Source: Acidobacteriota bacterium (lineage in GTDB: Bacteria; Acidobacteriota; Aminicenantia; Aminicenantales; Saccharicenantaceae). Taken from it: a stretch of 64,000 nt of DNA. Position 1 is the stretch's first letter, and each line of letters begins with the position of its first letter. A program made the translations under genes and the position numbers. The notes under the pieces are model-generated. The model was given only the letters and a program-made list of their open reading frames with translations. It searched no databases and had not been told where the DNA came from. Below are positions 9,134-28,700 of this stretch, piece after piece. The stretch covers positions 124,001 through 188,000 of the forward strand of contig JBDKSB010000011.1 in the NCBI GenBank assembly GCA_039683095.1, in the 5' to 3' direction.

Positions 9134-9213
9134 ATTTTTTTCTCCGGCGCGAACTTCGGCCGCTTTCTGATGTCTTTGCCCTATGTAAACGTATGTTTCC
9201 GAAAAGAGGGGCC
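9134..9213 (+). repeat. left 80-bp direct repeat of the island
   Basis: Aligns without gaps to 14957-15036 in the same orientation, with roughly four fifths of positions identical. Shared blocks include CCGGCGCGAA, TTCGGCC, TGTCTTT, CCTATGTA and GAGGGGCC. It sits between the Phd/PIN operon and the island genes. The rest of the roughly 300-base gap (8953-9251) holds only a weak TTGACA-17-TTATGT promoter-like pair at 9051-9079. Confidence 0.75.
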
Positions 9214-9251
9214 ACGGGGGCAGGCGGGCATGGTGGACTGGGATGAACATA

Positions 9252-9380: not shown

Positions 9381-10360
9381 AATCAGAAATCTGGCGTGTC
9401 CAGAGCGAGAAGATTGGCTCTCTCGAGGCATTCAGATCCGAGCGCGACATGGAGTCGTTCCTCATCAATAACCCGGCCATAGTCGGTTGCTGGGATCCCG
9501 ACGCCAGCAGCTCGATTCCCGCGCTCATCAGGGAGCAGATTTCCACCCTCACCGAGAAGTTCGATAAAGGCCGGATGGACCTGGTTGGCCTCGCTCGAAC
9601 CGAGAACGGATACGAACTGAGGATATTCGAGCTGAAAGCAGTTGAAATCACAGATAAGGCGGTAGACCAGCTTGACCGCTACCTCAAAGGCTGGAGGGCT
9701 CAGGCGTCGGCGAAAGAAAAAATCAAGAAGTGGGTCGTCGCGCTCGATCTCGAGGGCCTTACCGAAGCAGGCATCAAGGAGATCGTCGACAAGCCGGTCG
9801 GCGTGCTTGTCGGTCCGAAGTTCCTGCTTGAGGCAGCTGTCAAAGCAAAGTCCCTTAAGATACGGGCGGTCCGCCTGGCAAGGTTCAAGGCGGCTTCGGC
9901 TGCTGAATACTACGTCATCGTTGAAGATGAAGTCGGTGACGTCGTCGACACGAGCCGCAGGAGTTGGAGCTGGAAAGATCTTGCCGAAACCGGTCTTATT
10001 TCGGAGGGGGACTGCTTTGTCATCCGGCATGGCAAGGATGCCCTCAGGGCGAAGCCCGACCCCGCCGCCTGGGATTGGTACAAGAAGAAGGTGATATTCG
10101 ACGGGGATTCGACACGGAAGTTGATCGATAACGAAGTGGCGGTTCGCGCCCGGGCTAACAAGGATCACAAAAGATGGCTGGACAAGGAATATCGATCGCT
10201 GAAGGCCGGGTCAGGCGTCTTCCTTTCCAACGCGGCGGGCCTTTGTTATCTTGCGTTCGGCGGACCTACTCCTACATATTGGGTTTCCAACTGGTGCTGG
10301 ACCCATGAGAAGACCGGCCAGAAGTTGGACAGGCTTGTGCAGATTTTCATTGATAAATAA
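9377..10360 (+). CDS. NucS/DUF91-like PD-(D/E)XK nuclease
   Basis: 327 residues. The nuclease core sits at residues about 60-120: KFDKGRMDLVGLARTENG then LRIFELKAVEITDKAVDQLDRYLKGW, giving the Asp, Glu and Lys of a D-x(n)-ExK site and the following QL-x-RY helix as in NucS-type endonucleases. The N-terminal SEKIGSLEAFRSERDMESFLINNP is the helix seen in front of this domain in defence-related members. The last 150 residues (from SRRSWSWKDLAETGLIS on) are unfamiliar and may bind a substrate or partner. It is the first full gene of the island and precedes the HNH stump by 67 bases. Restriction-like or mismatch-cutting activity is inferred. Confidence 0.75.
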   Translation: MKSEIWRVQSEKIGSLEAFRSERDMESFLINNPAIVGCWDPDASSSIPALIREQISTLTEKFDKGRMDLVGLARTENGYELRIFELKAVEITDKAVDQLDRYLKGWRAQASAKEKIKKWVVALDLEGLTEAGIKEIVDKPVGVLVGPKFLLEAAVKAKSLKIRAVRLARFKAASAAEYYVIVEDEVGDVVDTSRRSWSWKDLAETGLISEGDCFVIRHGKDALRAKPDPAAWDWYKKKVIFDGDSTRKLIDNEVAVRARANKDHKRWLDKEYRSLKAGSGVFLSNAAGLCYLAFGGPTPTYWVSNWCWTHEKTGQKLDRLVQIFIDK

Positions 10361-10427
10361 AAATGATCGATATGAAATACCGGGGTCGTCTTTTCATTGA
10401 GGCGGGGGAGAAGGGCCCTAAAAAATC

Positions 10428-10616
10428 ATGAAACTCTGGATCGGCCTGACGGACGAAGAGTGGTTCGGCGTCGTCTCGTCCGTTACCGATATTGACGAGG
10501 TGAATTTCTGGCAGCCTGGGGGCGGCGGCCGGCAATTCCGGGCCCTCCTGCCGGGTGAGCCGTTCCTGTTCAAGCTGCACAGCCCGAATAACTATCTGGC
10601 TGGACAAGTAGAATGA
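10428..10616 (+). pseudogene. N-terminal stump of an HNH-type nuclease
   Basis: 62 residues: MKLWIGLTDEEWF...DEVNFWQPGGGG...GEPFLFKLHSPNNYLAG, then an abrupt stop. From memory this is the N-terminal domain of a family of roughly 300-residue HNH endonucleases, whose catalytic C-terminus is missing here. The stop overlaps the dGTPase start as ATGA (10613-10616). A 22-residue ORF (10363-10431) overlaps its start in the same way. It may still be translated as a coupling leader, but cannot be a nuclease. Confidence 0.55.
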
Positions 10617-11848
10617 AAATACCATTCTCCAATGAGAGGATGCAGGCGGGCCACCGTAAGTGGCGGCGGTGCATAGCTCGGGAGGGACACCTATATGAGC
10701 GCAAGGGCGATCCGCGGAGCGAGTTCTATCGCGATTATGCACGCATCTTGCATTCTACGGCTTACCGCCGTCTGAAGCATAAAACCCAGGTATTTTTCGC
10801 CACGGAGAACGACCATATATGCACTCGCATCGAACACGTCAACCATGTAGCCTCGGTCAGCTATACTATCGCAGATAATCTAGGCTTGAATACTGAGCTC
10901 GTCTCTGCCATAGCTACAGGTCACGATTTGGGTCATGCGCCGTTTGGGCATCAAGGGGAGATTATACTGAACGATCTTTCCCGTAAGGCTCTTGGCGAGG
11001 ATTTCTGGCACGAGAGAAATAGCCTGCGTTTCGTGGACCGCATCGAGACCCTGCCGAATCCTGCTGGCCTCCAGGAAAACCTTCATCTGACCTATGCCGT
11101 CCGAGACGGCATTATTTGCCACTGCGGGGAGATAGACCAGAAGACCTTAAGGCCGCGCGAGAAAGCCGTAGATCTTTACGACATCGAGGAGGCCGGCAGG
11201 ACGTCGCCGTTCACCTGGGAAGGTTGCGTAGTGAAAGTTTCCGACAAGATAGCTTTCCTCGGCCGCGATATCGAGGATGCCATCGAGCTCGGAATTCTGG
11301 ACAAGGCCGGCATTAGACGCCTTGGCGAGATAATAGCCGCGCTGGGCCCGGGGCTTAAACCTCGGGAGATCAATAATACTGTTCTAATGAATGAATTCAT
11401 CCAAGATCTTTCTCGCAACAGCAGCCCCAAGGAAGGCATTCGCCTTTCGCCCGAATATGTTAACGCTCTTAAGGCTATTAAAGAATTCAATTACGGATAT
11501 ATCTATGAGCATGAACGGCTAAGTCCGTTCAAGGAATATGCAAGGCTGATATTGACCGCCTTGTTTGATCTTCTTCGGTCGATGTACGGAAGCCGCAGAG
11601 AGAAGGCGAAGGCCGGCATAAATAAGAATCGGCATTGTTACCCGCTTCTGGCCGAGTATTTCGAAGACTGGCTGGTCAAATATTCCGATCTTGATCTCCT
11701 GGAGAAACGCAAGCGTAAGTACGCAAGCGGCCGGCTTTACCGGATTGAGGACGATCGCGACTTCACCCGAGCCGTCATAGAGTTCATCTCTGGTATGACC
11801 GACAAATTCGCTATCCGGTGTTTTAATGAAATGACCAGCTTTAAATGA
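10613..11848 (+). CDS. dgt: deoxyguanosinetriphosphate triphosphohydrolase (dGTPase) family protein
   Basis: 411 residues, full length for the shorter dGTPase class. The HD-type metal site is intact: LHSTAYRRLKHKTQVF, then RIEHVNHVASVSYTIA and AIATGHDLGHAPFGHQGE, followed by a further Asp in VVKVSDKIAFLGRDIEDA. The enzyme releases triphosphate from dNTPs. In defence settings related enzymes drain dNTPs during phage replication; housekeeping members control dGTP level. The location between a NucS-like nuclease and a helicase-exonuclease, the ATGA overlap with the preceding stump, and codon use that is AT-richer than the flanks favour a defence role by inference. Confidence 0.85.
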   Translation: MKIPFSNERMQAGHRKWRRCIAREGHLYERKGDPRSEFYRDYARILHSTAYRRLKHKTQVFFATENDHICTRIEHVNHVASVSYTIADNLGLNTELVSAIATGHDLGHAPFGHQGEIILNDLSRKALGEDFWHERNSLRFVDRIETLPNPAGLQENLHLTYAVRDGIICHCGEIDQKTLRPREKAVDLYDIEEAGRTSPFTWEGCVVKVSDKIAFLGRDIEDAIELGILDKAGIRRLGEIIAALGPGLKPREINNTVLMNEFIQDLSRNSSPKEGIRLSPEYVNALKAIKEFNYGYIYEHERLSPFKEYARLILTALFDLLRSMYGSRREKAKAGINKNRHCYPLLAEYFEDWLVKYSDLDLLEKRKRKYASGRLYRIEDDRDFTRAVIEFISGMTDKFAIRCFNEMTSFK

Positions 11849-12011
11849 AAAGATAATGGGACTAGATTCCTTGGCACAGAGAGCACTGGCATTAGGGGGT
11901 AATCGACGAAAAGCGCGGCCTGGGGGGCAATCCAAGTCTAAATGAGCGTCACGAAAAGCATATCGATGGCGGGCGCTTCATGCGCATTGAAAACTGCCTC
12001 CGGCCGGAGTT
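11849..12011 (+). other. intergenic stretch with overlapping short frames
   Basis: It holds a 29-codon frame (11856-11945) ending in an ATGA overlap with a 37-codon frame (11942-12055). A third, protein-like frame around 11899-12000 reads VIDEKRGLGGNPSLNERH and then GGRFMRIENCLRPELW, without a start codon. The last looks like a fragment of a real protein that I cannot identify. No promoter stands out. Confidence 0.3.
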
Positions 12012-14471
12012 ATGGAATCTTCCTGGAAAGAGGGGGATATCTTGGCCAAGAATGAACTCAATAGAGAGCAAAGGGACGTAATTGAATGCCTCAGAGGCCC
12101 GGTCCTCGTCTTGGCCCCGGTCGGCACGGGTAAGACGCTCGTACTCGCGGAGCGTGTCAAGCATGCGATCGCTACAGGCGTGGTTCCGGAGCGGACCCTC
12201 TGCTTGACGTTCACGAACCGAGCTGCCGGTGAGATAGCGGCGCGAGTTCGGAGCCAGTCCCCTGAGGCTGCTCCCAGGCTACTGGTTAAAACGTTCCATG
12301 GCTTGTGCGCGAGGATGCTTAGGATGGAGGCCCGGGCAATCGGCATGTCGCGCGATTTCGTGATATTTGACGATATGGATAGCATGGAGCTACTCCATGA
12401 CCTTTTTTCGCTGGACATGAAGGAAGCGAAAAGCCTTTATTATGAAATCGAAAGGATCAAAAGTGACACACTAGAGGATATGGGTAATTATGGCGAAACC
12501 TCACGGAAGGTCAACCGTTATCAGGCGGAATTACGGAAGATGTCGGCTCTTGATTATGCTGATCTCATTCGATCCGTCCGGGTGATGTTGAGTACTTCTG
12601 AAGAGATAAAGAACAGGTGGAGAAACCGATTCGACCTTATTCAAGTCGATGAGGTCCAAGATACTCATAATTCCGAATACGAGGTGCTGAGAACGCTTGC
12701 CGAGCAGTCGCGGAACATCGCCTTGATAGGCGACTTGGATCAGACGATTTATGAATGGAGAGGGTCAGAGCCAGATGAGATATTGGCCCGGTACAGAAAA
12801 GAATTCAACCCTCGGGAATTTAGTCTGATAAAGAATTACCGGGCAACGAAAACCTTGCTGCATGCTGCTTCTTCTTTCGCGAACATTCTCGAGGACCGAC
12901 GAACATCGATAGTCCCAGCGGCCTCATGCGGCATAGGACAGCCGATTGGCATACGGCGGGAACCGAATGAAGCGCAGGAAGCGAGTTGGATCGCGCAGAA
13001 GATCAGGGCTATTGCATCATCGGATTATAGCCGCATCGCAGTACTAGTTCGGAAAAATGACAGGGCGGCCCTCATATCTGATGTGTTAGAGCATCATGGA
13101 GTTCCATGCTTTACGGTGGAACAGTATGAATTCTTCCGACGCCAAGAGATCAAGGATGCCCTGGCATACCTTAAGCTGTTAATGAATCCCGAGGATCGCA
13201 ACAGTCTGGGCCGTGTATTGCTCCGTCCGCCGTGCGGCATTGGGGATGCGACGATAGCTCGGATAATCTTTGAAGGCGCGACATGCGGCTTGCGATTGAA
13301 CGACATGGTGTCTGCTTCATTCGATGAGGACGGCGAACCCTATGGTCGGCTGATACGGGATTTTAGAGGAGGAACGATATCGGTCGTTGATGTCGAAACC
13401 ACGGGACTGGAGACTGGTCGTGATGAGGTCGTAGAGATAGCAGCCGTTCGGATCGATAGGGGGCGCCCGGCGGAAACATTTCACCAGTATATCGCGAATA
13501 CTGTGCCTGTCGCCGACTCCGAAGCCATACATGGCTGGTCAGATGCATTCCTCAAGCAGAATGGGCTCCCGGCAGCCGAGGTCTATAGGGAGTTCAACCG
13601 GTTTATTGAAGGAGGACTGGTTGTAGGACATAACATCCGGTTCGATTTACGAATGATGGCAGCTCACGCGAGACGCGCAGGGCAGACGATGCCGAATATC
13701 CGCTCCTTTGATACATGGGCGATCGCCCTCCGGCTCCTGCCCGGGCTCGAAGACTACAAACTCGGGACGGTCGCCGGGCATCTTAGGATAACAGGGAAAC
13801 CGGAACATAAAGCCGAGGCCGACGTAATGGCGACTGAGCAAATATTGGAGCGTATGATGCCGGTGATCGAGGAGGGTTCGGCACGTAGACAGACAATCGT
13901 TGCCAGGCATAAGAAAGCATTCGATCCGCTGAAAGCCAATATAGCGTCCTTAAGCGCGAAAATGGATTTTATGAGCCCCGCAGAGCTTCTTGAAAACACT
14001 CTAGAGCAATCGGGGTTGCGCGAATATTATCGGTGCAACGGCGAGTCCAGGCGTCTGGAACATCTTGAGCGTCTGAAACGCATTTTTAAAGAAAAGGGCG
14101 AGCTCGGCTCAGCTAGCCGTTTAGCGCCTCGGGATGCGCTGGCCTCGATACTCGAATATGCCGCCTTAGCGAGGAATGTGGATCACATCTGCGATCAAGA
14201 CAACCTAGTTGCCGTTATTACAATCCATCAAGCGAAGGGACTTGAGTTCGATATTGTGTTCATAGCCGGTGCTTCCGAAGACGAGATTCCAAGCTACCTA
14301 AGCGTGCAGGGAGGACGGGCAGAGGAGGAAAAGAGGCTTTTCTATGTGGCTATGACCCGAGCCAAGCGCCAGTTGTTCATATCGAGCTACGAACAATCGG
14401 TCAAAGGACGAATTAAGGAACCAAGCCGTTTTCTATCTGCGCTCCCTGAACGGCTGATAGAACAATTATAA
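12012..14471 (+). CDS. UvrD-like helicase with inserted DEDDh exonuclease domain
   Basis: 819 residues from ATG 12012; a TTG at 12042 with GAGGGGG upstream is an alternative start. Helicase motifs are in order: Walker A APVGTGKT (about 34-41), LTFTNRAAGEIAARV, KTFHGL, Walker B VDEVQDTH, GDLDQTIYEWRG, LIKNYRAT, then TIHQAKGLEFD and VAMTRAKRQLF at the C-terminus. Between them, at about residues 453-625, lies an exonuclease domain: VVDVETTGLE (ExoI), VGHNIRFDL (ExoII), HKAEADVMAT (ExoIII). One chain should thus unwind and trim DNA. The AT-richer coding sequence matches the island. Repair or anti-phage DNA processing is inferred. Confidence 0.85.
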   Translation: MESSWKEGDILAKNELNREQRDVIECLRGPVLVLAPVGTGKTLVLAERVKHAIATGVVPERTLCLTFTNRAAGEIAARVRSQSPEAAPRLLVKTFHGLCARMLRMEARAIGMSRDFVIFDDMDSMELLHDLFSLDMKEAKSLYYEIERIKSDTLEDMGNYGETSRKVNRYQAELRKMSALDYADLIRSVRVMLSTSEEIKNRWRNRFDLIQVDEVQDTHNSEYEVLRTLAEQSRNIALIGDLDQTIYEWRGSEPDEILARYRKEFNPREFSLIKNYRATKTLLHAASSFANILEDRRTSIVPAASCGIGQPIGIRREPNEAQEASWIAQKIRAIASSDYSRIAVLVRKNDRAALISDVLEHHGVPCFTVEQYEFFRRQEIKDALAYLKLLMNPEDRNSLGRVLLRPPCGIGDATIARIIFEGATCGLRLNDMVSASFDEDGEPYGRLIRDFRGGTISVVDVETTGLETGRDEVVEIAAVRIDRGRPAETFHQYIANTVPVADSEAIHGWSDAFLKQNGLPAAEVYREFNRFIEGGLVVGHNIRFDLRMMAAHARRAGQTMPNIRSFDTWAIALRLLPGLEDYKLGTVAGHLRITGKPEHKAEADVMATEQILERMMPVIEEGSARRQTIVARHKKAFDPLKANIASLSAKMDFMSPAELLENTLEQSGLREYYRCNGESRRLEHLERLKRIFKEKGELGSASRLAPRDALASILEYAALARNVDHICDQDNLVAVITIHQAKGLEFDIVFIAGASEDEIPSYLSVQGGRAEEEKRLFYVAMTRAKRQLFISSYEQSVKGRIKEPSRFLSALPERLIEQL

Positions 14472-14602
14472 AAGGCAGCGAGATTGGGAGGTCGGGCGAC
14501 ATGTGTGTCGGCCATGTCAGGCTCAGACGTGCAACGGATCAATGAGAGAATAACCGAGTTAAGCTTAAAGGGGTGAACTGAGCCAGGGGATAAAGTGATC
14601 TC

Positions 14603-14896
14603 TTGAAAACGGGGTTTGATCGTGTTTATAACGCCCGCATCAGAGCCGTAGCCTTTGAATGGCTGACCGATCAGGTCCTTCGCTATGGAGACGTGTTGCC
14701 GCGGGACCTCCTGGTCCAAGGGTTTCATTTCGAGGAAGCGAGGGTTCCGCTCGTCGGCCCGCAGGGGATCTTCAAACCTCGCATTCTCGAGTTTCCGCTG
14801 TGGATCACGACGGCACTGGATGGGCCCTATAATGACGCCCTTGGCCCGGACGGTTAGGGGACTGACCTGAACCATCGAGATAATCGGGGCGTGCGC
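14603..14896 (+). pseudogene. HNH restriction-type endonuclease remnant
   Basis: The frame opens at TTG 14603 and reads AFEWLTDQVLRYGDVLPRDLL, RVPLVGPQGIFKPRILEFPL and DGPYNDALGPDG, then TAG. After the stop the same frame continues GTDLNHRDNRGVR. I recall this N-terminal pattern from HNH endonucleases of about 300 residues in which LLRYRYR lies between GPDG and GTD. That linker has been replaced by the stop codon, and the catalytic HNH half is gone. The remnant ends close to the right direct repeat. It belongs to a different family from the stump at 10428. The gap 14472-14602 before it holds nothing recognisable. Confidence 0.6.
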
Positions 14897-14956
14897 GACG
14901 ACCGCGTCGACTTCCTCCAGGCCAGTATCATTACTGACCGGCGGATCTCACGAAAA

Positions 14957-15036
14957 ATATTTTTTGCCGGCGCGAAGTTCGGCCCCTTTCCGGTGTCTTT
15001 AGCCTATGTAGATATCTGTTTTCGACGGGAGGGGCC
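14957..15036 (+). repeat. right 80-bp direct repeat of the island
   Basis: Gap-free partner of 9134-9213, same orientation. It includes the local palindrome AGATATCT where the left copy has AAACGTATGTTT, so a short inverted symmetry is kept although the bases differ. GC-rich chromosome-style coding resumes about 70 bases later. Confidence 0.75.
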
Positions 15037-15108: not shown

Positions 15109-16800
15109 ATGGCTAGCGCGGGGATCTCCGGCATCTACCCCAGGGGCGGGCCGTCGCTCGACTGGCCCGAGTCCGAGCAGGACGTCTATCGGCGCCTCAA
15201 GGAATCCCTCCCGGGCGGCTGGGTCGCCTGGCACTCGATGAAGATCCGGACGCACGGGGCGGAATTCGCCGAGTCCGACTTCGTCATCGCCGACCCGGCC
15301 CGCGGCGCCCTGGCCCTTGAGGTCAAGGGCGGCCTGATCGATAAAGGAGAGGGAGTCTGGCGGCAGAACGGCCAGGCCATGAAATCCTCGCCGCTCGACC
15401 AGGCCCACCGCTTCGTCCGGATGCTCCTGGCCAAGTTCAAGGACAAGCGGCTGGTCTCGCCGCCGATCGGCGTCGCCGCCGCCTTTCCGGACACGGATTT
15501 CGAGATCCCGCCCTCCCAAGGCGACCTCGAGGGCATCGTCATCGGGGCCCGCGACCTCCCGTACCTGGAGGATGTCCTGCCGCGGGTGTTCAAGACGGCC
15601 TTGAGGCCGAGCACGTGGGGCCCGGCCTCCCCGGGCTGGGTCGAATTCCTGCATGGCCTGTGGTGCGAGAGCTGGCCGCAGGGCATGACGCTGTCCCAGC
15701 TCGTCCGGGGGCGCGAGGCCGGGCGCGTCAGGATGGACGCCGAGCAGTTCGCGGCCCTCGAGAGCATCCTGGAGAACGACCTCGTGCTCGTCCGCGGCGG
15801 CGCCGGTTCGGGCAAGACCCTGCTGGCGCGCGAGCTCGCGATCCGCGAGGCGCGGGCCGGGCGCAAGGTCCTGCTGCTGACCTTCACCGACGCCCTGGGC
15901 CTCGAGCTGGCGGCGCGCATAGGCGAGCCGGGCGCCGTGGTTTCTCCCGTCGGCAGGTTCGCCCTGGAGAAGCTACGGAAGAGCGGCTTTGACGATCCGG
16001 AGCGCTATGAACCGGAATTCTGGAACGGGGTGACGCGGCGGGCCGCCGAGACGGTCGGGCTCTGGGAGGACCGAGGCGGTTTCGACACGGTCATCGTGGA
16101 CGAAGGCCAGGACTTCGGCCAATGCGAATGGGAGATCGTGGAGCGGTGCGCGGGACGCGGCGGCCGGCGCCGGATCTGGGTTTTCGCCGACGAGAAGCAG
16201 GCCTTCTGGGAGGGCCGGCGGATCCCTGCCGGGATCGAGGAGCGGGCGGTCAAGTTTGGATTGAGGCGCCCCTACCGCTGCCCCTCGGCCGTCCAGGCCC
16301 TGGCGGACGCCTATGCCGACGGCGGATGGGGGGACGGCTGCGAACGGCTCGAGGCCATGGCCCAGGGGCTGGCCGAGGGCACGGTCAAGGTCATCGCAAG
16401 CGACGGGGCCGGGCCCGAGATCCACTCCGCGGTCGGGGACGAGATCCGGGCCGCGAAGAAGCGGGGATTCGCCGAGAGCGACATCGCCGTGGTCTCGCTG
16501 CGGGGCCTGATGTACGCCGGCAACATCATGCACAATCCGTCGCTCGGGAGATGCGAGCTGGTCCAGGCTACGGACCTGGAGCGCCGGGACCGGGTCATCT
16601 GCGACACCTTCTTGAGATACAAGGGCCTGGAGCGGCCGATGGTCATCGTCGCGGACGTGCTGACGGCGGCCTCGCGGTATCGGGTCCGCATGAACATCGC
16701 CGTCAGCCGGGCGTGCGGCGCGCTGCGGATCGTCGTTTCCCGGGCCGAGCTCGAGCTGGACCCGATATTGAGGCGCGTCGCCGAAATGCAGGGGGAGTGA
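15109..16800 (+). CDS. NERD-domain UvrD-like helicase
   Basis: 563 residues. Residues 20-130 form a nuclease-related domain: ESEQDVYRRLKESLPGGWVAWHS, then AESDFVIADPARGALALEVKGG with the D...ExK pair, typical of NERD proteins. The helicase follows: Walker A RGGAGSGKTLLA (about 230-240), LLLTFTDALG, Walker B TVIVDEGQDF, FADEKQAFW, GLRRPYRCP, and RYKGLERPMVIVADVL plus MNIAVSRACGALRIVV in the C-terminal UvrD_C-like part. GC content returns to that of the chromosome. NERD helicases occur in defence islands and in plasmid maintenance; the target here is unknown. Confidence 0.85.
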   Translation: MASAGISGIYPRGGPSLDWPESEQDVYRRLKESLPGGWVAWHSMKIRTHGAEFAESDFVIADPARGALALEVKGGLIDKGEGVWRQNGQAMKSSPLDQAHRFVRMLLAKFKDKRLVSPPIGVAAAFPDTDFEIPPSQGDLEGIVIGARDLPYLEDVLPRVFKTALRPSTWGPASPGWVEFLHGLWCESWPQGMTLSQLVRGREAGRVRMDAEQFAALESILENDLVLVRGGAGSGKTLLARELAIREARAGRKVLLLTFTDALGLELAARIGEPGAVVSPVGRFALEKLRKSGFDDPERYEPEFWNGVTRRAAETVGLWEDRGGFDTVIVDEGQDFGQCEWEIVERCAGRGGRRRIWVFADEKQAFWEGRRIPAGIEERAVKFGLRRPYRCPSAVQALADAYADGGWGDGCERLEAMAQGLAEGTVKVIASDGAGPEIHSAVGDEIRAAKKRGFAESDIAVVSLRGLMYAGNIMHNPSLGRCELVQATDLERRDRVICDTFLRYKGLERPMVIVADVLTAASRYRVRMNIAVSRACGALRIVVSRAELELDPILRRVAEMQGE

Positions 16801-19656: not shown

Positions 19657-20002
19657 TGCCTTGGCTAAGGCAACGAACAGAATCTAAATGAAATAGTCGC
19701 GTTTTGGGGTTCCGCCATCAGTTTGCAGGTCCCATTTTATCGGCCGGTTTCAGGGCGGACGATGGTCAGCTACTTGCCTTGGCTAACGCAATATAAAGAT
19801 ATTAAATGAATTAGATTAATTTCCAGCTCCGGGATAAACTGATCAGAAGGTGGTTTTTCAGGACATTTCTCCGCCCGGCATACCAGTCAACAGAACGCGG
19901 AAAAGATCTTTTTCCGCCAAAAAAAGGCAGTCCCAAACTGTATAGATCAAGAGCAAACCAATACAACTTCTATATTATCAGTAAGATGCCTTAGCCAAGG
20001 CA
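19657..20002. repeat. AT-rich element bounded by TGCCTTGGCTAAGGCAA repeats (element 1)
   Basis: Copies of a quasi-palindrome lie at 19657-19673 (+), 19774-19791 (+, TTGCCTTGGCTAACGCAA) and 19987-20002 (-). The two + copies share a further tail ending TAAATGAAATAG or TAAATGAATTAG. The outer copies face each other like terminal inverted repeats, and the DNA between is far more AT-rich than its surroundings. A separate palindrome, GCGG(A)4GATC(T)5CCGC, is at 19897-19917. No gene was found in the gap 19611-19977. The - copy lies inside the 3' end of the tricorn-like gene. Origin (MITE-like or regulatory) is unknown. Confidence 0.65.
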
Positions 20003-23000
20003 CCAAGGAGCTCGGCGACAGCCGCCTCCAACTGCTCGTCGTGGCCCTTGACCACTTTCTCGTACGCGTTCATGACCTTGATGTCGGGCTCGGTCTGGTG
20101 ATTGTCGAGGTAGCCGATGCCCTCGACCTTAACCCCCATGGGCACGACGCCCCAGCGCACGCCGCTGTCCCCGAGCATCTCCCAGCCGGCGAACGAGCAC
20201 GTGCCCGGCACGGGCATGCCGACAAGCTTGCCCAGCTTGAGGTACTGGTAGGCGAAGGCGTAGCAGTGGCCGTCGCTGTACTGGGCCTCGCCGACGATCG
20301 AGATCGAGGGCTTGGTCCAGCGGAAATTGGGCTCGTAGCCGGTGCTCCGCTTGTCGGTCGTGTAATCGAAGAATTTCTTGCCGCTCAGGAACATGGCCAG
20401 GTCGGCCACGAGGTCGCCGCCGCCGTTGAAGCGCGTGTCGACGACAAGCGCCTCCCTGGTCGCGAACTTGCCCATGACCTCCTCGAAGGCCGAGCGGTAG
20501 GCGCTGTCGCTCATGCCCGGGACGTGGATGTAGCCCAGCCGGCCGCCGCTCAGCTTCTCGACCTCGGCCTGGTTCCGCAGGACCCAGCGCCGGTAGAGCA
20601 GGTTGCTCTCCTCGCGGGGCGAGACCGGCTTGACCGCAATCTCGCGCCTGGCGGGCGCCGCGCCCTTGACCGTGCCTTTTGCCGTACCCTTGTCCGGACC
20701 CTTGGCCGCCGCCTGGCCCGTTTGGCCTGCCGCGGCCGTCGCCGTCCCCGGCACGGACACGGTCAGCAGGACGTTCTGGCCGGCCTTGCGGTTGAGGTAT
20801 CGCTCGATGTCCTTGTCGGGCCTGACGGCCTCGCCATCCACGGCCTCGATGATCGTCCCGGGGACGATGTCCATTCCGGCCTTGTCGAGCGGCCCGCCTG
20901 CCATGACCTCGACGATCCTGACGCCTGGTCCGGCGTACGCCGTGTCGTAGAAGACGCCCAGCGAGGCCGTCTCGTCGGCGTTCTCCATCTGCCGTCCGTA
21001 GCGCGCCCCGCTGTGGCTGACGTTGAGCTCGCCCAGCATTTCGCTCAGAAGCTCGGCCAGGTCGTAGCCGTCGCCGATGCCGCTGAGGTGTTTCTCATAA
21101 ACGGACTTCAGGCCGTCCCAGTCGGCCCCGTGATACCCGCTCCTGTAGAACGTCTCCAGCACCCGGCGCCAGACGTGTTCGAACTGGGCCTGGCGCTCGG
21201 CGGCGACGTCGACGGTCATCTCGCCCTTGATGTCGATCGGGTCGCGCTTGCCGCTGGCGGGATCGACCTTGGCGATCGAGCCATCGGACATCAGGAAGAT
21301 CGACTTCTGGTCCTTGTCCCAGACCATCCGGCCGCCGTTGGCGTTGAGGGAGGCGAGCATCCTGGTCTCGCGGGTCTTGAGGTTGGTCGTCCACAGGTTC
21401 AGGCCCTTCTCGAAGCGGGACAGGTAGTAGAGGATGTCGCCGTCCTTGTTGACGAGGGCGTCGCCGAGCGACGACGAGTGGATGGTCAGGCGCGACTTGC
21501 GCAGGGCCAGGTCGGTCCAGTCGATGACCAGGGGCTTTATTTCCTCCTTCTTCTCCTTCTCCGTGGCCTCCTTCTTTTCCCCGGCCGCCCCGGGCTTGGC
21601 CTTCTTCTCCTCGATGTCCTTGAGCAGGGCTGCCTCCTCCTTGGTCAGCCGGAAGCGGTCCCAGGCGTCGCGGGTGAAGAACAGGGCGTAAGCGTCGTAT
21701 TGCGCGCCGCCGCTCTGGGCCACGGCCTTCAGGCCGTCGCGGTTGCTGAACCAGAGCATGGCCTGGCCGCCGAGGATCCACTTGGCCTGGCGGTCCTCGA
21801 AGCCGCTCTCGCTCAGGTTGACGATCTTGCCGGAGCCGTCGGCCTTGACCAGGCCGATCTCGCCGGGAGCGAAGCCGGGGACGGCGTAGTCGAAGAGAAG
21901 CCACTGGCCGTCCGGGCTCCACTGGTAATACTGGCTGCCGTCGGCCGAGGGGGCCAGCTCGCGGTCGGTCAGGAGCGTCACGGCCTGCCTGGTGGCCAGG
22001 TCCAGGACTTTGAGGGTGGTGCGGTCCTCGACGAAGGCCAGCTTCCTGCCGTCGGGGGAATAGGCCGGCTGGGTGTTCTGGCGGGCGTTGACGACGAGCG
22101 GCGTTTCCTTGAGCACCGTCGAGGCGCAGAAGTAGGGCTCCTCGGCGCGCGTGCGCCGGGTCTCGTAGACGCCCCAGCGGCCGTCGCGCTCGGAGGCGTA
22201 GAGGATGGCGTTGCCGTCGGGGGAGAAGGAGACGGCGGTCTCATCCCCGAACGACGAGGTGACGCGCTTGGTCATGCCGCCGTCGACATTGGCGGCGAAG
22301 ATGCCGCCGCGGACGACGACGGCGATCTCCTTGCCGTTGGGCGAGACCGCGAACTCGCGGGCCCCGCCGCTCGCGGGCACGACGACTTCGTTGTTGGCCC
22401 GGGCGTCTGACGAGAGGAAAACCGGGACGACGGCGGGCGCGGCCGCGTCGCCGCGCTGGGTGTAGATCGCGCCGTCGTAGCCGAAGCAGAGCGTGCCGTT
22501 CGCGGAGCGCGACAGGAAGCGGACCGGGTTCTTGGCGAAGTTCGTGATCCGGGTCGAGGCGCCTCCGGCGACGCTCATGCGGTGGACGTTGAACGAGCCG
22601 CTCTCCTCGCTCAGGTAGTAGAAGGCCTGGTCTCCGTCGGCCAGGACGGGCGAGCGGTCCTCGCCGGCGAAGTTCGTGACCTTGCGGTGCGTGCCGGCCT
22701 GGACGTCGCAGACCCAGATGTCGCGGGCGATGGCCGAGGTGTGGTGCTTGCGCCACTCGTTCTCGCCGCCCTTCTTGTCGTGGTAGACGATGAACCGGCC
22801 GTCCGCGCTGAAGCGGGCGTCCTCGGCCGGCGTGCCGAGGATCTGGACGGCGCGGCCGCCGGCGGCCGGGACCTTGTAGAGCTCGGGCTGCGAGCCGGCC
22901 GGGAAGGTCCGGTTGTCGGCGGCGTCGAGCCGGGCGGCGCCGAAGAGGACGGCCTGGTCGTCCGGCGTGAAGGAGAAGGGGATCTCGGAGGCCGAGTGAT

Positions 23001-23331
23001 AGGTCAGGCGCCGGGCCTCGCCGCCGGCCGCGGGCATGATGAAGACGTCGAAGTTGCCGTAGCGGTCGCTGGCGAAGGCGATGGACTTGCCGTCGTGGCT
23101 CCAGACGGGATTGGTGTCGTGGGCCTCGTGCAGCGTCAGGGGGACGGCCACGCCGCCGTCGGCCGGGACGCGGTAGATGTCGCCCTTATAGACGAAGGCG
23201 ATAGCCGCGCCGTCGGGCGAGATGGCCGGGTAGCGCAGCCACATGGGCACGTTGTCGGCGGAGGCGACGGCGCACAGGCCGAGGACGGCCAGGACCGGGA
23301 TGAGGGCGAGGACGGCTTTCTGACGCTTCAT
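19978..23331 (-). CDS. tricorn-like S41 protease with beta-propeller and PDZ domains
   Basis: 1,117 residues from the ATG with AAAGGAGC upstream. A signal peptide (KRQKAVLALIPVLAVLGLCAVASA) implies export. Residues 30-650 are propeller repeats of the PD40 type (SPDGAAIAFVYKGDIYRV, WSHDGKSIAFASDRYGNFDVF and many more). A PDZ domain follows (GPGVRIVEVMAGGPLDKAGMDIVPGTIIEAVDGE), interrupted by an Ala/Gly/Lys-rich insert, then the S41 core with VVDTRFNGGGDLV and EAQYSDGHCY; the Ser near residue 1,015 is the expected nucleophile. Likely role: peptide breakdown in the periplasm. The last residues, ALAKASY, are encoded by a copy of the intergenic repeat. Confidence 0.9.
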   Translation of the reverse strand: MKRQKAVLALIPVLAVLGLCAVASADNVPMWLRYPAISPDGAAIAFVYKGDIYRVPADGGVAVPLTLHEAHDTNPVWSHDGKSIAFASDRYGNFDVFIMPAAGGEARRLTYHSASEIPFSFTPDDQAVLFGAARLDAADNRTFPAGSQPELYKVPAAGGRAVQILGTPAEDARFSADGRFIVYHDKKGGENEWRKHHTSAIARDIWVCDVQAGTHRKVTNFAGEDRSPVLADGDQAFYYLSEESGSFNVHRMSVAGGASTRITNFAKNPVRFLSRSANGTLCFGYDGAIYTQRGDAAAPAVVPVFLSSDARANNEVVVPASGGAREFAVSPNGKEIAVVVRGGIFAANVDGGMTKRVTSSFGDETAVSFSPDGNAILYASERDGRWGVYETRRTRAEEPYFCASTVLKETPLVVNARQNTQPAYSPDGRKLAFVEDRTTLKVLDLATRQAVTLLTDRELAPSADGSQYYQWSPDGQWLLFDYAVPGFAPGEIGLVKADGSGKIVNLSESGFEDRQAKWILGGQAMLWFSNRDGLKAVAQSGGAQYDAYALFFTRDAWDRFRLTKEEAALLKDIEEKKAKPGAAGEKKEATEKEKKEEIKPLVIDWTDLALRKSRLTIHSSSLGDALVNKDGDILYYLSRFEKGLNLWTTNLKTRETRMLASLNANGGRMVWDKDQKSIFLMSDGSIAKVDPASGKRDPIDIKGEMTVDVAAERQAQFEHVWRRVLETFYRSGYHGADWDGLKSVYEKHLSGIGDGYDLAELLSEMLGELNVSHSGARYGRQMENADETASLGVFYDTAYAGPGVRIVEVMAGGPLDKAGMDIVPGTIIEAVDGEAVRPDKDIERYLNRKAGQNVLLTVSVPGTATAAAGQTGQAAAKGPDKGTAKGTVKGAAPARREIAVKPVSPREESNLLYRRWVLRNQAEVEKLSGGRLGYIHVPGMSDSAYRSAFEEVMGKFATREALVVDTRFNGGGDLVADLAMFLSGKKFFDYTTDKRSTGYEPNFRWTKPSISIVGEAQYSDGHCYAFAYQYLKLGKLVGMPVPGTCSFAGWEMLGDSGVRWGVVPMGVKVEGIGYLDNHQTEPDIKVMNAYEKVVKGHDEQLEAAVAELLGALAKASY

Positions 23332-23378
23332 CTGGGGCTCCTTTCTCGGGGCTGAGACGGCGATGATACCAGAAAAAA

Positions 23379-23502
23379 GGGGGACACAATACCTATTTCC
23401 CATTTTCTCCAGAGCGCGCGGGCCGCTCAATAAAATAGGGAAATAGGTATTGTGTCCCCCATTTTCGCCGCCTATAAAATCAGGAAATAGGTATCATGTC
23501 CC
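23379..23502. repeat. REP-like inverted repeat cluster
   Basis: A 23-bp perfect inverted repeat: the left arm 23379-23401 contains GGGGACACAATACC and the right arm 23438-23460 its complement, separated by 36 bases. A third, imperfect copy of the right arm lies at 23483-23502 (AAATAGGTATCATGTCCC) and overlaps the end of the next gene. The ends resemble those at 5422-5445 and 60884-60912. Such palindromes are typical of REP elements mobilised by RAYT transposases; no such transposase is in this window. It occupies the gap upstream of the tricorn-like gene. Confidence 0.7.
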
Positions 23503-24504
23503 GCTTTTGGGTCCCTTTTTATTCCTGACGCCGAACGAAAGCGCGCCCTTCGGGCAGCAGGAGTTAACGCAGACGGTGCAGGAGAAGCAGTCCGGCCGGA
23601 AGGCAGCGTCCTTCAGGATCTCGGGCACGGTCGGGCAGGGCGACTTCGCGGCGCAGGCGGCGCAATCGGTGCATTCGGATTTGCGCCGGACGACCCGGAA
23701 CAGGGCGAAGTTCTCGACCAGGTTGGTCAGCAGGCCGATGGGGCAGACGAGGTAGCAGAACGGCCGGTAGACGACGAAGGCGAAGCCGAGCGTCAGGAGG
23801 AACGGCAGGAAATGGAAGATGTTGTCGAGCAAGGTCGGCTGGATGGCGACCTCGTAGCCGTGGAAGGCGTTGATATAGTCGTAGAAGGACAGGGCCGCCG
23901 TCTGGCCGTTCTCCAGCGTCGTGTGCAGGACGGCGGTGCCGCTGAGGAAGACGAAGAGCAGGAAGAGGCCGACACGGACGCCCTGCGTGACCCGGAAGTT
24001 CCATTTGCGGCGGCGGATGCGGAGCTTGTCGGCGAGCATGGCGATGAGCTCCTGGACGGCGCCGACCGGGCAGACCCAGCCGCAGAAGAGCCTCGGCCCG
24101 ACCAGCGTCAGGATGAGGATGACCGCGAGGAAGGCGATCATGGGCGGCCGAAAGCCGTAGAGGATGGACTTCGTCGCCGAGCAGACGGGGGAGGGGTGCA
24201 TCGCGAACCCGGCGAACAGCTTCGTCGGCAGGTTGGCGGCGATGCCGTAGAGGAAGGTCGAAAGGAGCAGGATCGGCACCTTGACCGTGTTCTTCATCTT
24301 CCGGGTGAGGAGCAGGGCCAGGGCCACGAAGCCGATGACGAGCATGGTGGCGAACTTGGGACGGGCGAGGAAGGCGAGGATGCCGGCGGCTCCCTGCCGG
24401 CCGCGGCCCTGGCCCTGTTGGGCGGCGGCCAGGCCGGCGGGAAGCGCGATCAGAAAAGATGAAGCGAGGCCGGCGATCCGGCCGGCGCGTTGAGCAGATC
24501 TCAT
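23494..24504 (-). CDS. NapH-like polyferredoxin membrane protein
   Basis: 336 residues, start preceded by GGAGG. Six or so membrane segments are visible (ATMLVIGFVALALLL, VPILLLSTFLYGIAANL, PPMIAFLAVILILTLVG, VGLFLLFVFLSGTAVL, FLPFLLTLGFAFVVY). The membrane-linked Cys motifs FCGWVCPVGAVQEL and FCYLVCPIGLL match NapH/CcoG-type proteins. Two 4Fe-4S clusters follow near the C-terminus (CTDCAACAAKSPCP and CFSCTVCVNSCCPKG). It probably passes electrons from quinol or to a periplasmic partner; no partner oxidoreductase is adjacent. The final codons (KSGT) come from the third REP copy. Confidence 0.85.
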   Translation of the reverse strand: MRSAQRAGRIAGLASSFLIALPAGLAAAQQGQGRGRQGAAGILAFLARPKFATMLVIGFVALALLLTRKMKNTVKVPILLLSTFLYGIAANLPTKLFAGFAMHPSPVCSATKSILYGFRPPMIAFLAVILILTLVGPRLFCGWVCPVGAVQELIAMLADKLRIRRRKWNFRVTQGVRVGLFLLFVFLSGTAVLHTTLENGQTAALSFYDYINAFHGYEVAIQPTLLDNIFHFLPFLLTLGFAFVVYRPFCYLVCPIGLLTNLVENFALFRVVRRKSECTDCAACAAKSPCPTVPEILKDAAFRPDCFSCTVCVNSCCPKGALSFGVRNKKGPKSGT

Positions 24505-24605
24505 GACAACCTCCGGGGTTCAAGTCCGCCCATTTTAACCGAAACGGCCCGCTCTGGCCACCGATTTCGTTTTGGGGGATAATGGTCCCGCGACGGGGGA
24601 GGGCC

Positions 24606-25616
24606 ATGATCGAGGAACGCCTGCGGGAATGGGCCGCGGCGCGCGGCTACGCCTGCGCTATGACGGATCTCGGCGTAGTTGAGACCGTCCGGCGGAAGCT
24701 CGAGGAGCGCCGGGCCGCGGGAATGATCGAGGCCGGTTTTTTCGCGGATAGCCTGACCGGGTTCCGCTACCTCGAAGGAAGCTCGATCACCGGTCCGGCT
24801 TGCGCAGTGGTGCTGGCCGTCCCGTCGCCGATCAGCGTCCTTCCGGTGACGGTCGACGGGAGGAAGGTCGAAACCCTGATCCCGCCGACCTACGTCCGCT
24901 ACAACGCGACCTTCGAAGACGTCCTCGCGGACATGAAGGAGAACGCGCTGCGCGGCGACTTCGAGGCGGCCATCCTCAGGGCCCCCCTGAAATCGTTGGC
25001 CGCGCACATGGGCCTGGTCGCCTACGGGCGGAACAACATCACCTACCGGCCCGGCTTCGGCAGCGGCCACCAGCTCTGCGGCTATGTCGTCGGGGCGGCA
25101 TGGGAAACGGGCGAACGGCCGATGGCCGACGAGCCGCCGGCGGCGCAGCGGGCCGAAGCGAGGCTGGAGCGCTGCGGCGATTGTCGGGCCTGTCTCCAGG
25201 CTTGCCCGACGGGAGCGATCCGGGAGGACCGCTTCCTCATTTCCGCCGAACGGTGCTTCACCCTCCATTCCGAGAGCCGGAAGCCGATGCCGGCCTGGGC
25301 GCGGCCGGCCGGCCCCCTGTGTCTCATCGGCTGCCTGGCCTGCCAGCTGGTCTGCCCGGAGAACAAGGGCCGCCTGACGACGGCGCCCTCCGGGGTGGAA
25401 TTCACGGCCGAGGAAACCGACGCGGTCATCGGCGCGGGCCGGGACCTGGAGATGGCGGCCGGGGCCGGCCTGAGCCTGGCCGCCCGGGCCGAAAAGAACG
25501 CCGCGTTAGCCTTGGCCCTGGCGAAGTTCGAGCGCCTGGGCATGACTGAGGACATCGAGGTCATGGGCAGGAATCTCTGGTTTGCCTTGGCTAAAGGAAA
25601 CAATAGAAAACAATAA
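24606..25616 (+). CDS. QueG-like double-4Fe-4S protein
   Basis: 336 residues from ATG 24606, behind GGGGGAGGG; the earlier ATG at 24582 overlaps a likely -10 box (GATAAT 24579-24584). The Fe-S region is clear: CGDCRACLQACPTGAI then CLIGCLACQLVCPENKG, the spacing found in epoxyqueuosine reductase QueG. The N-terminal domain (residues 1-180, ending GYVVGAAWETGERP) is not an obvious match to QueG's cobalamin-binding part, so the substrate is uncertain and it may be a different reductase of the family. The C-terminal FALAKGNNRKQ is encoded by the intergenic repeat. It is divergent from the NapH-like gene. Confidence 0.75.
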   Translation: MIEERLREWAAARGYACAMTDLGVVETVRRKLEERRAAGMIEAGFFADSLTGFRYLEGSSITGPACAVVLAVPSPISVLPVTVDGRKVETLIPPTYVRYNATFEDVLADMKENALRGDFEAAILRAPLKSLAAHMGLVAYGRNNITYRPGFGSGHQLCGYVVGAAWETGERPMADEPPAAQRAEARLERCGDCRACLQACPTGAIREDRFLISAERCFTLHSESRKPMPAWARPAGPLCLIGCLACQLVCPENKGRLTTAPSGVEFTAEETDAVIGAGRDLEMAAGAGLSLAARAEKNAALALALAKFERLGMTEDIEVMGRNLWFALAKGNNRKQ

Positions 25617-25823
25617 TGTTAGCCATATAAAACCAAAGAAAAGCGGGCCTTTTTAACCCTTTTTTGGCCGATTTTCCGAAATCGCGGATCATAAAGATTT
25701 AGCGCTGGGGGAAATCGCTGCATCGAGGTTTTTGTGGGGAAAAAGAGGCGTTTTTCAGCTTAGAACAGGCCCTGAATATCAGTTATCGTTATGAATATCA
25801 GCAAGTTGCGTTAGCCAAGGCAC
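25582..25823. repeat. AT-rich element bounded by TGCCTTGGCTAA repeats (element 2)
   Basis: Inverted outer copies at 25582-25599 (+, TTGCCTTGGCTAAAGGAA) and 25806-25823 (-, GTGCCTTGGCTAACGCAA when read on the minus strand). The minus-strand copy continues CTTGCTGATATTC, similar to the CTTACTGATAATA tail of the right copy in element 1. Inside are a perfect hairpin CGATTTTCCGAAATCG (25669-25684) and a direct repeat TGAATATCAG (25773-25782, 25792-25801). The gap between the convergent QueG-like and pmbA genes holds no ORF. The PmbA stop lies two bases beyond the right copy. Confidence 0.65.
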
Positions 25824-25824: not shown

Positions 25825-27258
25825 TTAAGACCCGGCGATGGTCATCTCGGCGACCTTGACGGTCGGACCGGTGATCGAGCTGTTGAAATCGAGGTCCGTC
25901 CCGACGGCCTCGATCGTCTCGAGGATGCGCCCCAGGTTGCCCGAGATCGTGATCTCGCTCACCGGGTAGGCGATCTGCCCGTCCTCGATCCACAGGCCGA
26001 AAGCGCCCCGCGAGATATCGCCCGTCACCGCGTTCAGGCCGTGGCCGATCGTCCGGATGAGCAGCAGCCCCTTCTTCGTACCGGCGATTATGTCCGCCGC
26101 CGGCGCCGCTCCCTGCCCCGGCTCGAGGTAGAAATTCGCCGGCCCGACGCCCCCGCCGTCGGCGCTCCCTGTCGACTGCAGCCCGAGCTTGCGGGCCGCG
26201 TAGTAGTTGCAGAGGTAGCTTTTCAGCACGCCCTTCTCGACGACCATGGTCCGCCGGCAGGGCAGGCCGTCCGAGTCGAACGGATGCGACCCCAGCGCGC
26301 CGCGCATGAGCGCATCGTCGATCACCGTGATCCGCTCGTTGCCGATCCTCTGCCCCAGCTTGCCCTCGAGGAAGGTCGCCTTCTGGTAGACCGCCGTGCC
26401 GGTGACGCACCCGAACAGGAACCCCAGGAGCCAGCCGGTCTGCGTCGGCTCGAAAAGGACCGGCGCGTTCTGGGTCGGGACCTTGCGCGGATGGAGCTGA
26501 CGCACCGTCCGCTCGACGGCCTTGCGGGCGATCTCCTCGGGCGCTCCCAGGTCTTTGAAATGCCTCTTCGACGAGGACCAGGAATCCTCGACCCGGTCGT
26601 CCGTGCCGCCGGCCTGCAGCCCGACGCCGAGCCCGCAGTAGGTCTGCTCGTACTCGCCGACGAAGCCGTTGGTCAGGGCCAGGACGGAACGGATCTCGTT
26701 CGAGGAGAAGGTCGCGCCGTAGGAGTTGGTGATGCGCTTGTCCCGCAGCGCCGCCCTCTCGGTCCGGAGGGCCAGGTCGATCTTGGTCTTCGAATCCAGC
26801 CCGGCGATGGCCGGGTCGTAGAGATCGAGCCCGACGGCGTCCACCCGCTCCCCCGAGAGCGGGGCCAGCGCCGCGAACTCGTCCGGGCTGCCAAGCTCGG
26901 CCCGCCGCACCGCGTTGCGGACGAGGCGCCGCAGCGTCGCCGGGTCGAGATCGGACGAGCTGGCGTAGGCCGTCTTCGTGTCCTTGATGATCCGCACGCC
27001 GGCCGACCGTGAGCCCGCCTCGACCAGCGTCTCGATCCGGCCCTTGCGGACGTCGACGTTGAACTCGTAGCCGTCGACGATGGAGACCTCGGCCTCGCCG
27101 GCCCCGCACTTGCGGGCGTATTCGACCAGTGACTCGGCCAGGTCGCGCAGGGCCGGCGCCGGCCTGGCCGTTTCCCGCCGCTTCGCGACCTGTCTTGCCG
27201 CCGGCATCCCGCGCCGCCCCGCGACCCGCCCCGGCGCCTGTCCCGCCGCCCGCCTCAC
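25825..27258 (-). CDS. pmbA: PmbA/TldE metallopeptidase-family subunit
   Basis: About 477 residues. The chosen start is GTG 27258: GGAGGG lies five bases upstream and the GTG overlaps the tldD stop (GTGA). An ATG at 27207 lacks a ribosome site. The family pattern is clear: SLVEYARKCGAGEAEVSIVDGYEFNVDVRKGRIE at the start, LLGFLFGCVTGTAVYQKATFLEGKLGQRI in the middle, GTKKGLLLIRTIGHGLNAVTGDISRGAFGLWIEDG near the C-terminus. There is no HExxxH; TldE is the inactive partner of TldD. Together they cleave unfolded or modified peptides in the cytoplasm. Confidence 0.9.
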   Translation of the reverse strand: MRRAAGQAPGRVAGRRGMPAARQVAKRRETARPAPALRDLAESLVEYARKCGAGEAEVSIVDGYEFNVDVRKGRIETLVEAGSRSAGVRIIKDTKTAYASSSDLDPATLRRLVRNAVRRAELGSPDEFAALAPLSGERVDAVGLDLYDPAIAGLDSKTKIDLALRTERAALRDKRITNSYGATFSSNEIRSVLALTNGFVGEYEQTYCGLGVGLQAGGTDDRVEDSWSSSKRHFKDLGAPEEIARKAVERTVRQLHPRKVPTQNAPVLFEPTQTGWLLGFLFGCVTGTAVYQKATFLEGKLGQRIGNERITVIDDALMRGALGSHPFDSDGLPCRRTMVVEKGVLKSYLCNYYAARKLGLQSTGSADGGGVGPANFYLEPGQGAAPAADIIAGTKKGLLLIRTIGHGLNAVTGDISRGAFGLWIEDGQIAYPVSEITISGNLGRILETIEAVGTDLDFNSSITGPTVKVAEMTIAGS

Positions 27259-28700
27259 GACCGCCCTCCGACCGTCATCTTGCCGATGCGCAGCGTCGGG
27301 CAGCCGTCGTTGACCGGCACATCCTGGCCGTCCTTGCTGCACGTCCCTGTTTGCAGGCCGAAGGCCAGGTCGCCGCCGACCCGGTCGATGCGCTTCAGGA
27401 TGTCGATGTTCGTCCCGATGAGCGTCGCCTGCTTGACCGGGGCCGTGAGCCGGCCGCCCTCGATGAGATAGCCGAGGGTCACGGAGAAGGTGAACTTGCC
27501 TGAGTCCTCGACCTGGCCGCCCGACAGGCTGGCGACGTAGAAGCCCTTGTCGACCGAGCGGACGATGTCCTCAGGCGCGTCCCCGCCCGCCGCGATGTAG
27601 GTGTTGGCCATGCGCGGGATGGGCCAGTGGCCGTAGTCCTGGCGCCGCCCGTGCCCCGTCAGCGCAGCGCCGCGCATCAGCCGCGACGAGAGCTTGTCCT
27701 GAAGCAGTCCGCGGACGACGCCCTTCTCGATGAGCAGGGTCCGGCGCGGCGCCGTGCCCTCGTCGTCGACGTTGTAGGAGCCGCGGAACGAGGGGATGGT
27801 CGGATCGTCGTAGATCGTGACCAGCTCCGAGCCGACCCGCTTTCCCATCTTGTTCCAGAAGATCGAGGTCTTCTTGCGGTTGAAGTCGGCCTCGAGCAGG
27901 TGGCCGACGGCCTCGTGGATGAGGACGCCGCTGTGGCCCGGGGCCAGCACGATGGGCATCTCGCCGGCCGGCGCGTCGGCGGCCCCGAGCAGGACGACCG
28001 CCTCGCGGGCCGCCCCTTCGCCGATCTGGCGCGGCGTCAGGACGTCGCGGAAGTACTCCAGGCCGACCCGGCCGCCGCCGCCCCAGAAGCCCGCCTCGCG
28101 CTTGCCGTCCTTTTCCGAGATGGCGACGCAGACGAGCTTGATCATCGGCCTGGTGTCGCGGACGAGCAAGCCCTCGGAGTTGGCGATGCAGACGTGCGTG
28201 AGCGAATCCGAATAATAGGCTTTGACCTTGGCGACGCGCGGGTCGTGTGCTTGGGCCGCGCCGTAGGCCTCGCGGACGAGCTTGATCTTCTCGCCGAGGC
28301 CCGATGCGCTCGCCGGCCGGCGGACGGCCAGCCGCTCCGAAGCCCTGGTCCGGTCGCGGAGAGGCGGGGGAGGGGCGTCGGCGCCCCGGCCGCGGGCGAT
28401 GGCCGCGGCCGTCCGGGCCGTCTTGCGGACCTTGTCCATGGAGAAGTCGTTGGTGTAGCCGAACCCCGTCCGGTCGCCGCGGATGACCCGGATGCCCAGC
28501 CCCAGGCTGACGGACTCGGCCGTCTCCTTGATGATGTCCTCCTCCATGTTGACGAAGTCGTAGGTCCGGTGCTCCATGAATATCTCGGCGAACTCGCCGC
28601 CGCTCGACAGGGCCTCGCCGAGGACCGACCGCAGGTCGGCCGGGCTCAGGCCGAAGTGGTCGACGTAGGGGATGGCTTTCGGTTTCGTCTGGCGCGTCAA
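27255..28700 (-). CDS. tldD: TldD metallopeptidase
   Basis: About 481 residues from TTG 28700; the frame is open further upstream without homology, so the start is uncertain. The zinc motif HEAVGHLLEADF supplies HExxxH. Other signatures: EFAEIFMEHRTYDFVNMEEDIIKETAESVSLGLGIRVI, SFRGSYNVDDEG, LIEKGVVRGLL, YIAAGGDAPEDIV and KGFYVASLSGGQVED. It should form a TldD/TldE peptidase with the overlapping gene downstream. It diverges from nadC. No RiPP precursor was found nearby. Confidence 0.9.
   Translation of the reverse strand: MTRQTKPKAIPYVDHFGLSPADLRSVLGEALSSGGEFAEIFMEHRTYDFVNMEEDIIKETAESVSLGLGIRVIRGDRTGFGYTNDFSMDKVRKTARTAAAIARGRGADAPPPPLRDRTRASERLAVRRPASASGLGEKIKLVREAYGAAQAHDPRVAKVKAYYSDSLTHVCIANSEGLLVRDTRPMIKLVCVAISEKDGKREAGFWGGGGRVGLEYFRDVLTPRQIGEGAAREAVVLLGAADAPAGEMPIVLAPGHSGVLIHEAVGHLLEADFNRKKTSIFWNKMGKRVGSELVTIYDDPTIPSFRGSYNVDDEGTAPRRTLLIEKGVVRGLLQDKLSSRLMRGAALTGHGRRQDYGHWPIPRMANTYIAAGGDAPEDIVRSVDKGFYVASLSGGQVEDSGKFTFSVTLGYLIEGGRLTAPVKQATLIGTNIDILKRIDRVGGDLAFGLQTGTCSKDGQDVPVNDGCPTLRIGKMTVGGRS

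Follow-up and report, generated by a model that had tools for sequence, protein, structure and literature searches.

Repeat copies in the window and across the genome

Two AT-rich intergenic gaps in the window, the 64,000-nucleotide stretch of DNA that was analysed (C11:124001-188000 of the source genome G000, 3.29 Mb in 13 contigs), raise the question of what the short repeats within them are and whether they belong to a mobile element. The original prediction described five copies of a 17-mer in these gaps and compared the inverted outer copies with the terminal repeats of a MITE. All five copies are real, each within 1-2 bases of where it had been placed, at 19657, 19775 and 25583 (+) and at 19986-20002 and 25806-25822 (-). 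With up to three mismatches allowed, the window held 8 matches to the 17-mer against 0.15 expected, a number reached in 0 of 100 shuffles, some copies being counted on both strands because the core is near-palindromic. The low GC content of both gaps was likewise confirmed (about 51-53% in 500-bp bins, with surroundings mostly at 63-73%), as was the likeness past the core, where TAAATGAAATAG / TAAATGAATTAG follows two of the + copies and CTTACTGATAAT / CTTGCTGATATT follows two of the - copies; this likeness extends about 100 bp inward of each tip. The first gap consists of one single end unit, then an inverted pair. The single unit, which has no partner, spans 19656 to about 19755 (+), with its tip GCCTTGGCTAAGGCAA at 19658 and a profile match of 55 bits, and the pair, a non-autonomous element at 19774-20003, is made up of a left unit at 19774 to about 19873 (+) and a right unit from about 19904 to 20003 (-), with profile matches of 54.6 and 55.8 bits. 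The second gap holds an inverted pair at 25582-25823, with a left unit at 25582 to about 25681 (+), whose tip is slightly degenerate (GCCTTGGCTAAAGGAA), and a right unit from about 25724 to 25823 (-), matching the profile with 37.5 and 63.2 bits, respectively.

Three genes abut these pairs. The ORF of a tricorn-like S41 protease (19978-23430, -; Pfam PD40, Tricorn_C1 and Peptidase_S41) overlaps the pair at 19774-20003 with its 3′ end, and its protein ends in ...LLGALAKASY. An ORF at 24582-25616 (+; Pfam Fer4_16), putatively named as encoding a QueG-like 4Fe-4S protein, overlaps the second pair in the same way and ends in ...NLWFALAKGNNRKQ, and 3 bp separate the right tip of that pair from the stop codon of a PmbA/TldD-family protease gene (25825-27342, -). 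The interval between the two window elements, 23494-25616, is partly variable within the genus: the QueG-like gene is present in only 2 of 12 congeners and is therefore unusable as an anchor for empty sites, whereas the tricorn-like and the neighbouring PmbA/TldD-family genes are widespread. Elsewhere in the window, the stretch 9001-15000, which ends near a NERD/UvrD-type helicase gene (15109-16800), has about 50-57% GC compared with mostly 63-73% in the genome and is possibly foreign DNA.

The 17-mer is not confined to the two gaps. A search of the whole genome with up to two mismatches returned 43 sites, on contigs C1, C4, C9, C11 and C12, compared with 1 for a reversed-pattern control. The 17-mer forms the outer tip of a transposon end of about 100 bases, of which the genome has about 45 copies. 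Over about 100 bp, 44 units align ungapped in a fixed register, and outside the tip the sequence is unconserved. Among these units, 26 are arranged as 13 inverted pairs that face inward, 2 flank a transposase gene and 16 are single; the pairs measure about 203-261 bp with the tips outermost, and the empty ones, of about 230 bp, have no ORF inside. Each end unit combines a tip of 14-17 bp, which is conserved across the genome, with a body of A/T tracts. The consensus begins with tGCCTTGGCTAACGCAA, continues with an A/T-rich part at 18-38 (ct.acagAtAatAAAa.aatTAg), and further in peaks in A/T content near 45-48 and again near 66-68, before TTTTT at 78-82 and a run of A/T at 89-93. The tips are invariant and the bodies strongly diverged, different copies being only about 40% identical beyond the tip, a contrast that is partly a product of tip-based searching. 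The prediction that the interiors differ thus holds for their sequence, but it misses the A/T tracts that the bodies share in a fixed register. A short palindrome unrelated to the family, GGGACAGTCCC...GGGGACCGTCCCTCCC, which may belong to another repeat family, was seen beside one unit on contig C12 (near 3050 of locus L041, C12:820000).

The RAYT gene, its tips and the phased body

An inverted pair of family ends, at 52776 (+) and 53814 (-) of contig C9, encloses an intact gene for a protein of 256 aa (C9:52929-53696), the only family-ended RAYT in the 13-contig assembly. Its product (P0001) is a Y1/HUH transposase of the RAYT/TnpA-REP superfamily, since it matches Pfam Y1_Tnp with 30 bits (cut-off 23) and the NCBIfam REP-associated tyrosine transposase with 58.8 bits, which is under the cut-off of 80, and since sequence profile (E 0.005) and fold both point to E. 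coli TnpA-REP (4er8) as its best solved relative. The fold search, which used a model of a 65% identical homologue (pLDDT 87) in place of the G000 enzyme itself, also returned the IS200/IS605 transposases 2xm3 and 2vjv. The motifs NHIH (HUH) and YIDLNM of P0001 are invariant or nearly so in alignments, with YID[LM]NM present in 37 of 45 relatives; the C-terminus is a confident helical region in the model, but Pfam gives no helix-turn-helix family match there. A collection of species-level genomes yielded 506 relatives, spread over Aminicenantes, Desulfobacterota and several further groups, a distribution that points to Candidatus Aminicenantes as the probable source of the window. Most of the relatives with both flanks available have inverted ends, typically GGGGTCGG[GA]CCAAGCTAAC, and their elements mostly measure 0.93-1.06 kb.

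Several further observations concern RAYTs and their surroundings. A second Y1_Tnp-family protein of 232 aa is encoded by an intact frame 14 kb from the active-looking C9 RAYT (around C9:39071-39337; L055:1129-1827, -); it looks catalytically dead, since DSVD replaces HUH and the YIDLN tyrosine motif is absent, and it is perhaps a domesticated RAYT. Both G000 and G011 have a conserved non-coding block (..GCCGACGCTCCGGGC..GAGCGTCTTTATCC..), for which no Rfam match was found, next to the RAYT element, on opposite sides of the gene (upstream in locus L057, downstream in L058). At another locus (L059, G013 C5:232018-232752) the RAYT frame contains one internal TAG, and each flank carries a short inverted element in complete form (CTCTGGCTGCTGGA...TCCAGCAGCCAGAG), so that two pairs replace two ends.

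The exact G000 tip was absent from all 59 relatives when these were searched with the exact pattern. Restriction of the family to one species was rejected, as a sequence-only unit profile detected the body behind different tips in most congeners, with 13 units in G011, 20 in G008, 24 in G012 and smaller numbers in another seven; many of these matches start at model position 14 or later, i.e., inside the tip. Read outward from the body, the tips are GGGGTCGGACCACAG in G001, G008, G011 and G012, GGGGTCAGACCCCAG in G009, TGCTTGGCT in G003 and G007, and GCCTTGGCTG in G008 and G011. G011 encodes two RAYTs, with 67% and 52% identity to the G000 enzyme. The first is flanked by GCCTTGGCTGTCATA and the second by GGGGTCGGACCACAG, and each type also occurs as dispersed units in this genome. 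We infer from such sequence pairings, for which G011 is the best evidence, that each RAYT pairs with its own tip type. G012 has many units, yet a RAYT of the same family was not found in this genome, which is 89% complete, and a RAYT corresponding to the GCCTTGGCTG-type units of G008 was not found in G008, so that these are units without a resident enzyme. At one G008 locus (L233, C173:700-4700) a RAYT was matched in two pieces, with GGGGTCGGACCACA-type units nearby.

The A/T content of the G000 units is periodic at 11.0 bp, both in the averaged profile (p 0.02) and in the individual units (z = 16 relative to shuffles in 4-bp blocks). The same period was found in 58 units of the genus with another tip type, and 38 RAYT left ends, mostly from Desulfobacterota, gave a period of 10.75 bp (0 of 2000 shuffles as strong in either set), with a T run and an A run at the same coordinates as in the G000 units; seven RAYT right ends showed the same peak, which was not significant (p 0.16). 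A body of A/T tracts phased at 11 bp is common to three data sets that include other phyla. A hairpin in the body was rejected. RNAalifold found no consensus structure in the units. No compensatory pairing emerged from scans for covariation or from testing the bases inside the T run/A run, with the exception of one isolated covarying column pair in relatives. The second run is T instead of A in about a third of the G000 units, and for this reason phased tracts fit better than a stem. The halves of pairs showed no complementarity beyond the tip (38.9% vs 38.6%), and Rfam gave no credible match to the units.

Insertion sites and the origin of the repeats

Occupied sites proved to be empty in congeners. 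At C4:52696, where the comparison rests on the spacing of protein matches and on the G011 sequence, the flanking genes are 0-55 bp apart in eight congeners and a 259-bp element separates them in G000, with G011 carrying a separate element of its own. The site of a 238-bp element in G008 is empty in G009, where the junction carries 23 additional bp; since junctions were compared between species, the element ends are not exact to the base. A unit lies at the 3′ end of G000 uvrC, whose last codons are unlike those of congeners, and the end of a peptidase gene at C1:469717 is likewise altered. At about 12 gene ends the frame reads through the tip (GCC TTG GCT AAC/AAG, giving ALAN/ALAK) and stops in the A/T-rich part, and at 4 further ends the TAA of the tip itself is the stop (...LG and stop); both counts are approximate, as genes were called by ORF length. 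Sites are clustered, with a neighbour within 10 kb for 22 of 27 compared with 3.9 expected. Same-orientation neighbours less than 3 kb apart are 54% identical outside the tip, compared with 40% for other pairs and 39% for opposite-orientation neighbours, a similarity which indicates that local copying keeps orientation. Such retention is a prediction of strand-biased single-strand transposition; segmental duplication could equally cause it.

Taken together, the repeats very probably terminate a family of RAYT-type (Y1/HUH) transposons of the TIRtron kind, along with its non-autonomous derivatives. This reading is based on the enclosure of the C9 RAYT by inverted family ends, the superfamily assignment of its product, the excess of genomic sites over the control and the ungapped alignment of the units; on the position of homologous RAYTs between inverted ends in other genera and phyla; on the match between G011 tips and their resident RAYTs and the empty sites in congeners; and on the absence of target duplication and the clustering of neighbours with orientation kept. 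By analogy with IS200/IS605 and TnpA-REP, the RAYT would recognise tips of its own type and move or copy a pair by single-strand cleavage and joining through its HUH and tyrosine residues, leaving the target unduplicated, while the phased body would serve as an architectural element acting on duplex DNA. New copies would land mostly close to their source in the same orientation. Insertion at gene ends would be tolerated, with the final codons often exchanged for those of the tip and the stop provided by the unit. Single ends probably represent what is left of former pairs.

A different origin, in which the units are regulatory elements (terminators or insulators) maintained by the host, a host protein binds the tip and the adjacency to a RAYT is incidental, would account for the many units that adjoin gene 3′ ends, several of them between converging genes, and diverged bodies behind constant tips could also fit a host function that selects the tip. 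We regard it as improbable, given that orthologous sites in congeners lack the element, that tips are wholly different between congeners, that the same architecture encloses RAYTs across phyla and that local clusters retain orientation; the units may have a secondary host role after insertion. The MITE comparison in the original prediction was correct in part: the elements are mobile, short, mostly non-coding and intergenic, and their outer copies face each other as terminal inverted repeats. Movement of a classical MITE family by an undetected DDE transposase, with which the inverted ends, the length of about 230 bp and the pairs lacking an internal ORF agree, is nevertheless highly improbable. 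A check for target duplication detected none at 14 inverted pairs (mean match 0.93 vs 0.75 by chance, p 0.33), the interiors are dissimilar, and the intact transposase between the same ends is a Y1/HUH RAYT and not a DDE enzyme. Least credible of all, and virtually dismissed, are attC-like integron sites with the genes between pairs as cassettes: GGCTAAC...GTTAGCC loosely resembles RYYYAAC...GTTRRRY and genes of about 2 kb separate successive pairs on contig C4, but GTTAGCC (and GGCTAAC) violates the GTTRRRY consensus, the same body carries GGGGTCGGACC tips in congeners, single units are common and the flanking genes, e.g., uvrC and feoB, are chromosomal.

Within the RAYT reading, a wider proposal concerns the whole clade and is held with rather less than even confidence. 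Its ends may be two-part, with an exchangeable, RAYT-matched tip and a body of about 85 bp whose tracts stand at fixed coordinates (e.g., 78-82 and 89-93 from the tip) with an 11-bp period, a body conserved in lineages of this widespread clade as far apart as Aminicenantes and Desulfobacterota. Should the body work on duplex DNA, through bending or a protein that reads one face of the helix, these HUH transposases would assemble on long phased ends without relying on a short hairpin, unlike IS200/IS605 and TnpA-REP, and specificity would shift by a swap of the tip alone. The present data tie together dispersed repeats, their likely transposase, tip-swapped sister families and a phased end body across phyla, a linkage which opens to direct testing both the part of the end that each RAYT recognises and the need for helical phasing. 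The family further accounts for a class of intergenic AT-rich repeats in Aminicenantes genomes, whose insertions alter gene 3′ ends.

Comparison with known systems

IS200/IS605 elements end not in inverted repeats but in short subterminal hairpins. The G000 family shares with them the transposase fold and an unduplicated target, and differs in its inverted ends and in a body where no compensating hairpin was found. REPINs with their RAYTs (Bertels and Rainey, 2011; PMC3116915) resemble it in that inverted doublets are the apparent mobile unit and singlets probable remnants, and in an outer conserved 16-mer with a variable interior and one RAYT per repeat type. The G000 units differ in being about 100 bp rather than 20-40 bp long, in their A/T-phased body and in numbering tens rather than hundreds of copies. 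Identity with GTAG REPs or REPINs was rejected, as the 44-unit alignment has no conserved GTAG/GTGG-type foot on a 20-40-bp palindrome.

The closest counterparts are the TIRtrons with their TIRYTs, as set out in the text of Di Nocera et al. (2013; PMC3733652), which probably correspond to TnpAY1 subclass 2.1 in the text of Quentin et al. (2018; PMC6006769). The latter links this subclass to TIR-flanked RAYTs, reports that automatic and manual searches found no REP-like sequences beside its genes, and assigns it a C-terminal helix-turn-helix domain and, as its signature, the class 2 tyrosine motif Y---NP. In common with the TIRtrons described in PMC3733652, the G000 family has a Y1/HUH RAYT-like gene bounded by long inverted repeats that bear no relationship to GTAG REPs; these TIRs also occur elsewhere as families of singles and dimers, and the protein is long, with a C-terminal extension. 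The TIR motif GGGGWSAS is given there as a majority feature, not a universal one; the G000 tip GCCTTGGCTAACGCAA misses it, the G009 tip GGGGTCAGACCCC fits and the GGGGTCGG of other relatives is close. The tyrosine motif of the G000 clade is YID[LM]NM (in the 37 of 45 relatives above) and not Y---NP. The text consulted from both papers makes no mention of a phased body of about 85 bp or of tip exchange; the kind of element is known, and the helically phased body with a swappable tip appears, within that text, to be undescribed. Measured against these published descriptions, the G000 family is a TIRtron on most features, but a variant and not a plain member, since its tip misses the majority TIR motif and its clade lacks Y---NP.
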